Shown here: piece by piece, positions 1,056-2,575 of the stretch
Layout: the number at the start of each line of letters is the position of its first letter
Position numbering within the stretch: position 1 is the first letter of the stretch
Origin: Caballeronia sp. SBC1
GTDB taxonomy: Bacteria; Pseudomonadota; Gammaproteobacteria; Burkholderiales; Burkholderiaceae
DNA length: 64,000 bases
Assembly: GCF_011493005.1 (NCBI RefSeq)
Contig: NZ_CP049156.1
Span: 496,001 to 560,000, forward strand
Reading direction: 5' to 3'
Notes under the pieces: model-generated
Told to the model about the DNA's origin: nothing
What the model saw: only the letters and a program-made list of their open reading frames with translations
Databases searched by the model: none
Made by a program: the position numbers and the translations under genes

Positions 1056-1478
1056 TCAGCTCGCGACGATATCGAAGGAATGCGTCAATTCGGCCGTCTT
1101 CGCCAGCATGATCGACGCCGAGCAGTATTTGTCGTGTGAGAGGGTGATTGCGCGTTCAACCGTCGCGGGATTCAGGTTCTTGCCTGTCACCGTGAAATGG
1201 AAGTGGATCTTCGTAAACACCTTCGGCTCTTCACTCGCGCGCTCGGCCTTGAGCGTGACCGAGCAACCCGCCACTTCCTGACGACTTTTCTTCAGGATCA
1301 TCACGACGTCGTACGCGGTGCAGCCGCCCGTGCCGAGCAAGACCATTTCCATTGGTCGCGGCGAGAGATTGCGGCCGCCGCCTTCCGGTGCGCCGTCCAT
1401 TGTGACCAGATGACCGCTGCCCGTTTCCGCGGCAAACGCCATTCCGTCCTGTCCCATCCAGCTAACTTTGCATTCCAT
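1056..1478 (-). CDS. OsmC/Ohr family peroxide reductase-like protein
   Basis: A 140-residue protein of normal length for the OsmC/Ohr family, small cytoplasmic dimers that reduce organic hydroperoxides with a pair of cysteines. Both expected cysteines are visible: GTGGCTAYD around residue 53 and DKYCSAS around residue 119. The opening MECKVSWMGQDGMAFAAETGSG resembles the YhfA/OsmC-like branch more than Ohr, so the true substrate is uncertain. Start is the ATG at 1476-1478. It stands alone, convergent with rnpB and sharing its terminator. Confidence 0.88.
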   Translation of the reverse strand: MECKVSWMGQDGMAFAAETGSGHLVTMDGAPEGGGRNLSPRPMEMVLLGTGGCTAYDVVMILKKSRQEVAGCSVTLKAERASEEPKVFTKIHFHFTVTGKNLNPATVERAITLSHDKYCSASIMLAKTAELTHSFDIVAS

Positions 1479-1735: not shown

Positions 1736-1768
1736 TTTGCATTATGAAATTACATCCCATAATGCAAA
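1736..1768. promoter_or_regulatory. 11+11 bp perfect palindrome, operator candidate
   Basis: TTTGCATTATG at 1736-1746 is repeated in perfect inverted orientation as CATAATGCAAA at 1758-1768, with an 11-base spacer. The arm centres are 22 bp apart, two helical turns, as expected for a dimeric regulator contacting one DNA face. The site ends 5 bases before the -35-like box of the candidate small RNA promoter, centred near -57 from the inferred start, a usual place for an activator. No protein can be named. Confidence 0.6.
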
Positions 1769-1773
1769 TTTAC

Positions 1774-1802
1774 TTGCTTTGCACAAAAGCCCTTCATATA
1801 CT
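1774..1802 (+). promoter_or_regulatory. Candidate promoter of small RNA
   Basis: TTGCTT at 1774-1779 and TATACT at 1797-1802 are separated by 17 bases. The -10 matches consensus at 5 of 6 positions, the -35 at 3 of 6, fitting an activator-dependent promoter. The transcription start would be near 1808-1810. Confidence 0.55.
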
Positions 1803-1807
1803 TGCTC

Positions 1808-1868
1808 CTGTCTCCTCCACCTCCTCCTAGGTGGATTCAGCCCGAGCCCAAGGCTCGGGCTTTTTTTC
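1808..1868 (+). ncRNA. Candidate small regulatory RNA with anti-Shine-Dalgarno loop
   Basis: No open reading frame fits this stretch, yet it has a promoter-like sequence on its left and a strong terminator on its right, giving an RNA of about 60 nt. A hairpin with a 6-bp stem (CCACCT at 1817-1822, AGGTGG at 1829-1834) displays CCTCCT in its loop, and the string CACCTCCT equals the anti-Shine-Dalgarno end of 16S rRNA. Such an RNA could pair with ribosome-binding sites of mRNAs. Small RNAs with CUCC-rich seeds are known from Rhodobacter and have been reported in Burkholderia, so this may belong to a known type. Transcription is inferred, not shown. Confidence 0.55.
1839..1867 (+). terminator. 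Strong intrinsic terminator with no upstream gene
   Basis: AGCCCGAGCC at 1839-1848 pairs perfectly with 1852-1861 around a 3-base loop and is followed by seven T. The nearest + strand gene upstream (rnpB) already has its own terminator 800 bases earlier, so this one implies an otherwise unannotated transcript. Confidence 0.85.
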
Positions 1869-1996: not shown

Positions 1997-2026
1997 TTGA
2001 CTTCATATCCAAATTTCCCTTATAAT
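1997..2026 (+). promoter_or_regulatory. Promoter of rplM-rpsI
   Basis: TTGACT at 1997-2002 and a consensus TATAAT at 2021-2026 are separated by 18 bases. The inferred start near 2033 leaves an mRNA leader of about 114 nt before rplM, long enough to hold the autoregulatory structures known for L13 operons, although no known leader fold was recognised. Confidence 0.75.
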
Positions 2027-2146: not shown

Positions 2147-2575
2147 ATGAAGACGTTTTCCGCAAAAGCCCATGAGGTGACGCGTGAATGGTACGTGATT
2201 GACGCGACGGATAAGGTTCTCGGACGTGTCGCCAGTGAAGTGGCCGCCCGACTTCGCGGCAAGCACAAACCCGAGTTCACCCCGCACGTCGACACTGGCG
2301 ATTTCATCGTCATCATCAACGCCAGCAAGTTGCGCGTCACGGGCAACAAGGGTACTGACAAGAAGTACTACCGTCACTCGGGCTATCCGGGCGGCATCTA
2401 CGAAACGACGTTCAACAAGATGCAAGAACGCTTCCCGGGCCGTGCGTTCGAGAAAGCCGTTAAGGGCATGTTGCCGAAAGGTCCGCTCGGCTACGCGATG
2501 ATCAAGAAGCTCAAGGTCTACGCTGGCGCAACGCATCCGCATACGGCTCAACAGCCTAAAGCGCTCGAGATCTAA
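2147..2575 (+). CDS. rplM: 50S ribosomal protein L13
   Basis: Early-assembling large-subunit protein that binds 23S rRNA. The 142 residues beginning [19 protein letters not shown] match L13 over full length, with the family block [14 protein letters not shown] and the ending QQPKALEI. The frame is open further upstream, but this ATG is the conserved start; the leader part is not protein-like. It is 11 bases from rpsI and forms the usual rplM-rpsI operon behind the promoter at 1997-2026. Confidence 0.98.

Follow-up and report, generated by a model that had tools for sequence, protein, structure and literature searches.

The window, by which we mean the whole stretch of 64,000 nucleotides from Caballeronia sp. 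SBC1 that was analysed, carries a short RNA element between a gene that we take to be osmC-like and a gene that is presumably rplM (ribosomal protein L13), both names coming from the original prediction. The features of the locus are as follows.

566-983, + strand: RNase P RNA, bacterial class A (Rfam RF00010, 284 bits), 5′ of the osmC-like gene
1056..1478, − strand: presumed osmC-like gene, ORF of 423 bp (140 aa), used as a synteny marker
1736..1768, no strand assigned: inverted repeat TTTGCATTATG-N11-CATAATGCAAA, 5′ of the promoter, a possible operator (direct reading)
1774..1802, + strand: sigma-70-like promoter TTGCTT-17-TATACT, 6 nt 5′ of the RNA start (direct reading)
1774..1786, + strand: putative PhaR/PhbF-type operator TTGCTTTGCACAA (TGC-N3-GCA), overlapping the −35 box (consensus match)
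1809..1868, + strand: double-hairpin small RNA of the RF02278 family, very probable ncS27 ortholog, predicted length about 60 nt (RF02278 70.2 bits, fold z −4.9)
1809..1818, + strand: 5′ tail with the anti-Shine-Dalgarno (anti-SD) seed UGUCUCCUCC, the first 7 nt unpaired, GTCTCCTCCA being the most conserved part
1816..1835, + strand: hairpin 1, 7-bp stem, CCUCCU loop at 1823-1828 (direct reading and single-sequence folds)
1839..1867, + strand: intrinsic terminator, 10-bp stem and T run (sequence scan, covariation)
1997..2026, + strand: promoter-like pair TTGACT-18-TATAAT, 3′ of the small RNA terminator, which could serve rplM-rpsI (promoter scan)
2147..2575, + strand: presumed rplM (L13), ORF, synteny marker and the query that gave 80 loci

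The original prediction described a promoter pair with 17-bp spacing, a hairpin with a CCTCCT loop, and a 10-bp terminator with seven T, all of which were confirmed base for base. The −35-like TTGCTT (1774-1779) and the −10 TATACT (1797-1802) are separated by a 17-bp spacer; the −35 hexamer matches the consensus at just three of six positions, and the pair at 1774-1802 was not among the predictions of the promoter scan. By direct reading, UCCACCU at 1816-1822 pairs with AGGUGGA at 1829-1835 to form hairpin 1, and the terminator stem consists of 10 pairs at 1839-1861, followed by a run of seven T at 1861-1867 whose first T closes the stem. The fold of 1790-1890 has a computed energy of −33.8 kcal/mol (z = −4.9), which none of 200 shuffled sequences equalled. 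The absence of a reading frame was also fairly stated, as the element is crossed by mechanical ORFs only (87 aa from TTG and 43 aa from GTG). The string CACCTCCT indeed equals part of the expected 16S tail GGATCACCTCCTTTC, whose five matches in the genome are assumed to be the 16S ends, but it spans 1818-1825, so that most of it (five of eight bases) belongs to the stem and the loop contains only its CCT.

The Rfam covariance search proposed with the original prediction assigned the element to RF02278, 'Betaproteobacteria toxic small RNA', with a score of 70.2 bits (cut-off 50; E 4e-12 for the window) over the full length 1-64. The two hairpins, the second of which is the terminator, and the CU-rich unpaired tail and loop agree with the family structure, and 1809-1868 is almost certainly a member of RF02278. 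The other Rfam families compared all scored below their cut-offs on this RNA: RF00519 suhB/mmgR at 17.3 bits (cut-off 41), RF02877 NmsRb at 24.9 (52), RF02837 anti-hemB at 29.1 (49.5), and RF02651 SorY and RF02784 SorX, which are CU-rich RNAs of alphaproteobacteria, at 21.9 (111) and 24.8 (46.6), respectively; these families were rejected on their scores. The original prediction rediscovered a known RNA: it was correct about the kind of element, a minimal RNA that blocks the SD and ends in a terminator, but the candidate is not novel, being a member of a family already described.

The genome of this strain has five RF02278 copies, three above the cut-off and two weak. Surveys gave copies above the cut-off in 182 of 200 genomes from the same bacterial family, in 59 of 150 genomes of the order, in 2 of 185 in the class-level draw (the genome itself and one of the same order), and, in each survey, in none of 14 controls. 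One of the weak relatives, L005 (1501-1558, − strand; 35 bits), lies 2 kb from the copy L001 and keeps the GTGTCTCCTCC tail without an anti-SD loop, as if the tail by itself were enough.

The position of the RNA is also conserved. Among the 80 rplM loci, three of which have less than 330 nt of upstream DNA, 46 carry RF02278 over the cut-off upstream of rplM on the same strand (18/20, 16/20, 6/20, and 6/20), and together with the window copy they make up the rplM-linked set of 47 copies. By DNA similarity over the first 5 kb, Caballeronia arvi (L039) comes first among the loci, and three of the top five bear the name Caballeronia. The RNase P RNA upstream of the small RNA and rplM recurs in many related loci. 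In Burkholderia cenocepacia, ncS27 is reported as a 92-nt RNA at 3666557-3666648 on the minus strand, 317 bp from the re-annotated start of BCAL3349 at 3666965. The osmC-like gene of the window, at 423 bp, has the length of this re-annotated BCAL3349. The osmC-like gene of a close relative, B. aenigmatica (L037), starts at 1428, and the processed end of the RNA is at 1775; when the transcription start is taken 30 nt before the processed end, the RNA is 92 nt long and the osmC distance is 317 bp, as published for ncS27 in J2315. Locus and spacing thus agree on both the osmC side and the rplM side, and the window RNA is very probably the ortholog of ncS27, so that the published ncS27 experiments were most likely performed on the ortholog of this locus.

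Much has been reported on these relatives. Sass 2015 assigned ncS03, ncS05, ncS27, and ncS62 to RF02278 and credited the Northern confirmation of the toxic small RNAs to Kimelman 2012 (PMC4603805); the window RNA resembles all four in its family, its two hairpins, and its CU-rich tail and loop. Sass 2017 named them double-hairpin RNAs, predicted their pairing over the ribosome-binding sites (RBS) of carbon transport and metabolism genes, and reported that ncS27 overexpression attenuates growth and its silencing increases growth (PMC5688073). In the same paper, three of the four homologs share an unnamed upstream motif, and ncS03, ncS05, and ncS27 are induced 8.0-, 6.9-, and 4.3-fold in glucose medium; the cause of their accumulation in B. 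cenocepacia is stated there as unknown (PMC5688073). The relatives are reported as expressed, independent transcripts, and the family inhibits growth of Escherichia coli on a vector (PMC4603805, PMC5688073). A 2019 study of ncS27 is summarised in a 2024 review (PMC10987360), and ncS03 and ncS27 belong to a group of 14 genes whose disruption came under positive selection in each of two infection models (PMC12013268).

Similar RNAs are reported from elsewhere in the Betaproteobacteria. S17S of Bordetella pertussis represses a translational lacZ fusion, and the 5′ region of S17/S17S closely matches RF02278 RNAs, with a 2-nt mismatch to 'bdhR1' (PMC11722255, a preprint). S17S is conserved in Betaproteobacteria and acts on the RBS of transporter and catabolism genes, but it is cut by RNase E from a 190-nt precursor, is higher in the Bvg+ mode, and had little effect on E. 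coli growth in the test of that study (PMC11722255). NmsR of Neisseria (RF02877) likewise directs CU-rich unpaired stretches to the RBS of metabolic genes (PMC5688073), but it is a tandem pair with TCA-cycle targets, and its family model gave the sub-threshold score listed above. By analogy with these RNAs, it is highly likely that the window RNA would act by RBS blocking.

Comparison of the 47 rplM-linked copies indicates which parts matter. The GUCUCCUCCA/GTCTCCTCCA part of the 5′ tail is invariant in all 47, whereas 42 retain CCTCC in the hairpin part and 13 have the 16S-like CACCTCC (CACCUCC in RNA), from the CACCTCCT region. The loop is well kept, but the invariant element is the tail, and the seed would therefore be the 5′ tail first and the loop second. 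In an alignment of 40 of the 47 copies (A1), eight of nine consensus pairs of the terminator stem show a double change that keeps the pairing. Hairpin 1 was not recovered from this alignment by RNAalifold, since the two arms are nearly invariant and the 3′ one was broken up by MAFFT; this hairpin rests on single-sequence folds.

The 5′ ends differ between lineages. A −10 box was flagged 33-60 nt upstream of the mature end in 31 of the 47 loci, which have a leader (e.g. ATTGGTTGTCGC...), and none was flagged in 13. The −10 is only 6 nt upstream of the mature end in the window, in L039 (Caballeronia arvi), in L050, and, by eye, also in L056, whereas the leader is retained in the Caballeronia-like loci L054 and L062; the window also has a weaker flagged −10 match 45 nt before the mature end. 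Whereas ncS27 is a 92-nt RNA that can be processed, a primary transcript of this type with a processed 5′ leader is not predicted in the window, and with its −10 at 6 nt and no leader the window RNA appears to be an ncS27 ortholog of altered form, whose primary transcript should already equal the processed form. The term 'minimal' used for the regulator therefore suits this lineage but not the loci in which a leader is present.

Possible targets were surveyed in 864 kb of the same genome, covering 480 genes from our own rough caller. GGAGACA, the complement of the tail, was the commonest and most enriched GGAGNNN in the RBS (12 of 480 genes, 3.7-fold). Matches of at least 7 bases to the real tail complement occurred in 26 RBS versus 17 for the best permuted tail, and matches of at least 8 bases in 7 RBS versus 8 for a permuted one. 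The computed duplexes with GGAGGAGACA are −20.2 kcal/mol for the small RNA tail and −9.8 kcal/mol for the 16S tail, whereas those with a perfect 16S-type SD are −12.4 and −21.0 kcal/mol, respectively; these opposite preferences suggest that the small RNA tail and the ribosome favour different kinds of RBS. An action on many mRNAs had been expected, but the RNA need not affect mRNAs at large, given the enrichment of GGAGACA and the kind of genes that have it.

Fourteen genes have GGAGACA or GGAGGAGAC in the RBS. Eight of them encode uptake functions (five MFS transporters, two solute-binding proteins, and a porin), and the remaining six encode a PQQ dehydrogenase, an FAD monooxygenase, an amidohydrolase, an SDR, an epimerase, and one protein of no recognised function. 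Uptake genes make up 3 of 20 control genes and 7 of 30 controls on the same replicons, and the one-sided Fisher test gives p 0.010 for 8/14 versus 10/50 and p 0.037 for 7/12 versus 7/30 on the same replicons, where the uptake class is the author's reading of Pfam names that counts all MFS proteins and leaves aside a LacI-like periplasmic-binding domain and efflux parts. The GGAGACA/GGAGGAGAC genes thus may lean to uptake, a weak and post hoc indication. Phasin mRNAs were rejected as targets, as they did not stand out.

The promoter region offers a clue to the control of the RNA. The core TGC-N3-GCA at 1775-1783 resembles sites described for PhaR, the regulator of polyhydroxybutyrate (PHB) storage: TG[N]TGC[N]3GCAA was found by MEME and protected in footprints for PhbF (PhaR) of Herbaspirillum seropedicae, and CTGC[N]3GCAG is given for PhaR of Rhodobacter sphaeroides (PMC3206438). 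The window site ACTTGCTTTGCAC contains the core but neither the additional TG nor the last A of the H. seropedicae form. When the promoters are aligned, TCTTGCGTYGCACAA stands out as conserved across the −35 box. In the 120 nt upstream of the RNA, TGC-N3-GCA was found for 35 of the 47 rplM-linked copies and for 35 of 53 other copies, where 3-4 are expected from a background of 0.07 per 120 nt in 800 kb of the same genome. Other spacings from 0 to 10 gave 0-16 (rplM-linked) and 0-7 (others), the 16 being spacing 1 and, by eye, partly leader hairpins. The 53 other copies are best-scoring ones (29 the best of the family survey, two from the same genome, and 22 from eight named genomes), many of them of one paralog type and with the weak copies L004 and L005 omitted, and all sequences compared for the box are related rather than independent.

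The box is not universal. In the same genome, it is present at the window copy and at L002 and absent at L001, and it is missing from the 120 nt upstream of 12 of the other 46 rplM-linked copies, including those of Burkholderia sensu stricto (L036, L037, L044, and L047) and of Cupriavidus (L058, L060, and L061); the Ralstonia copy L059 has its match in the leader rather than at the promoter. Since the box of the window copy has no counterpart in any of the four Burkholderia sensu stricto loci, it does not account for ncS27 itself.

Other upstream motifs were also seen. Degenerate forms of the inverted repeat at 1736..1768, CATTATG...ATTTCGnAATGCAAAT by eye, lie upstream of many orthologs in Burkholderia, Paraburkholderia, Pandoraea, and Ralstonia loci. 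The Herbaspirillum RF02278 copies L156, L162, L163, and L170 (loosely also L155 and L169) have, instead of the PhaR-type box, a motif of about TTTGTGAATAT...ATATC...AAAGCnGAC by eye, and a second regulator may drive them.

The presence of the box can be compared with that of PhaR across the order outside the strain's own family, using one copy each from 82 of 95 RF02278-positive genomes; of the 13 dropped, six have a match adjacent to phaR and are treated apart, and seven have no listed place. Of the 82 copies, 44 carry the box: 37 of the 57 from PhaR-bearing genomes and 7 of the 25 from genomes in which no PF07879 match was found (p 0.002). Its strictest form, TGC-N3-GCA[CG][AC], stands at 30 of 57 versus 0 of 25. 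Four box forms were tried on the first 60 copies, and the lead figure is that of the loosest, literature-derived form, which there gave 29/44 with PhaR versus 4/16 without (p 0.006), the strictest giving 26/44 versus 0/16. The 22 later check copies point in the same direction (loose 8/13 versus 3/9, p 0.19; strict 4/13 versus 0/9, p 0.10), and a control region 400-520 nt upstream contained the box in 3 of 60. Twenty of the 57 copies in PhaR-bearing genomes lack the box; among the seven PhaR-lacking exceptions with a loose box, G297 and G319 are genomes of 85-87% completeness with PhaR-bearing genus mates. Across 150 genomes, the presence of RF02278 and that of PhaR are weakly associated (p 0.10).

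The genes of PHB storage show the same box. The genome of this strain encodes PhaR (PF07879, 108.5 bits), and four of its six phasin genes have the box, at five sites in all, each no more than 140 nt from the ORF start; 0.5 would be expected in the nearest 140 nt and 1.4-1.6 in the 400-450 nt scanned (P about 0.02 for the five seen). The 400 nt upstream of phaR itself contain no box, and phaR autoregulation through it was rejected. In six of the 72 genomes having both PhaR and RF02278 (for five of the 72, no RF02278 place was listed), an RF02278-like RNA was found, among the matches listed, 264-1105 bp from phaR and transcribed away from it; these genomes belong to three families, and about 0.09 genomes are expected by chance in a rough estimate. 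The six RNAs score 32-40 bits, below the Rfam cut-off. Five of them (L223-L227) lie directly 3′ of Pfam Phasin_2 genes divergent from phaR, the gene of L225 being barely over its cut-off, with boxes between phaR and the phasin gene; in the sixth, boxes lie between phaR and the RNA. The RNAs of L223-L227 are possibly released from the phasin 3′ UTR. A home-made phasin profile found no phasin upstream of 60 copies; tried on two phasins not used in its training, it detected that of L225 but missed that of L120.

As a genome-wide regulon finder, the operator scan was rejected for lack of specificity. The plain box is little enriched (23 versus 14 in the reversed control), the promoter form shows no enrichment (9 versus 9), and ten ORFs behind other box-like sites have no recognisable PHB domain. 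Promoter-like sites with a PhaR-type box at −35 were seen at L179 (C3:1095718, − strand) and L175 before small ORFs, of about 48 aa and of 163 aa without a Pfam match.

Several other explanations of the element have to be weighed. A chance hairpin before a terminator has nothing in its favour except the shortness of the element, and it is hardly credible in view of the RF02278 E value of 4e-12, the fold z of −4.9, and the conservation across family and order. It is also very improbable that the element acts in cis on rplM-rpsI, as a terminator or leader by which the expression of the ribosomal proteins is set. The RNA does lie about 340 bp upstream of rplM on the same strand and is kept there in 46 of 80 loci, but a separate promoter-like pair at 1997-2026 follows its terminator, the distance to rplM grows to ~710-735 bp in four Burkholderia loci, further copies lie elsewhere in the genome, and the relatives are reported as independent transcripts (PMC4603805, PMC5688073). 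A cis leader of rplM was rejected on the separate promoter-like pair and the copies elsewhere.

The more serious alternative is that RF02278 RNAs are general, largely non-selective SD blockers, that is, growth brakes or toxins with no link to storage, and that TTGC...GCA is a −35 box or the site of another regulator. The growth inhibition of E. coli from a vector (PMC4603805, PMC5688073) would fit such a role, as would the match of the tail to any GGAG, the many copies without a box, and the different upstream motif shared by the Herbaspirillum copies (four clearly and two loosely, by eye). Yet GCA lies in the spacer, where sigma-70 needs no fixed bases, and nevertheless follows 3 nt after TTGC in 33 of 37 rplM-linked and 32 of 45 other promoters with TTGC at −35, other TTGC-GCA spacings being rarer; moreover, the same box stands at four of six phasin genes, and relatives lie behind phasin genes beside phaR. 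On balance, a general SD blocker is possible but rather doubtful. From the sequence comparisons, PhaR control of the RF02278 family as a whole appears reasonably probable, and PhaR control of this very copy is favoured only slightly.

We consider it likely that the element is an ncS27-orthologous RF02278 RNA that would block the RBS of carbon uptake genes and would be repressed by PhaR. According to this proposal, and as described by others for relatives, the tail UGUCUCC and the loop CCUCCU would pair with the SD region of mRNAs and so keep ribosomes from loading, preferably where GGAGACA or GGAGGAGAC precedes the start codon. The main targets of the RNA would be genes by which sugars, amino acids, and aromatics are taken up and broken down. 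Repression of transcription would come from PhaR occupying TTGCTTTGCACAA at the −35 box; when PHB granules form, they would titrate PhaR, the RNA would be made, and carbon intake would be damped during storage. The rise of ncS03, ncS05, and ncS27 in glucose medium would fit PhaR control. The leader of about 30 nt that is processed in ncS27 would have been lost in this lineage, making the primary transcript the active form.

By analogy, the nearest known circuit is that of MmgR of Sinorhizobium meliloti (RF00519), a short small RNA that is reported to be negatively controlled by AniA (PhaR) and to act on phasins and PHB (PMC8401924). MmgR is alphaproteobacterial and its family lies far below the cut-off here (17.3 bits versus 41), so that the resemblance is one of circuit and not of family. 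The RF02278 RNA and the growth effects of ncS27 are already known, whereas the sequence evidence that would tie the family to the PHB-storage regulon is new; in the available text of the open-access literature searched, outside of which the 2019 ncS27 paper and Kimelman 2012 lie, no paper linking RF02278 to PHB or PhaR was found. Riboregulation in the PHB model Cupriavidus necator has been called undeciphered (PMC8401924).

At about even chances, the proposal may be extended to the whole RF02278 family as a post-transcriptional arm of the Burkholderiales PHB-storage regulon. The RNA would have arisen as, or been recruited to, the 3′ end of a phasin mRNA beside phaR and then spread as a stand-alone gene, with many copies keeping PhaR operators and braking the translation of GGAGACA-type carbon-uptake genes during storage, while PhaR-less genomes would keep the RNA but mostly not the operator. 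If this is true, the amount of an RNA that closes off carbon intake would be governed by the granule sensor, and a family described as 'toxic' would be tied to carbon storage. The PhaR operator would then offer a testable answer to the questions of small RNA accumulation in B. cenocepacia and of riboregulation in C. necator, and it would be relevant to PHB production strains.
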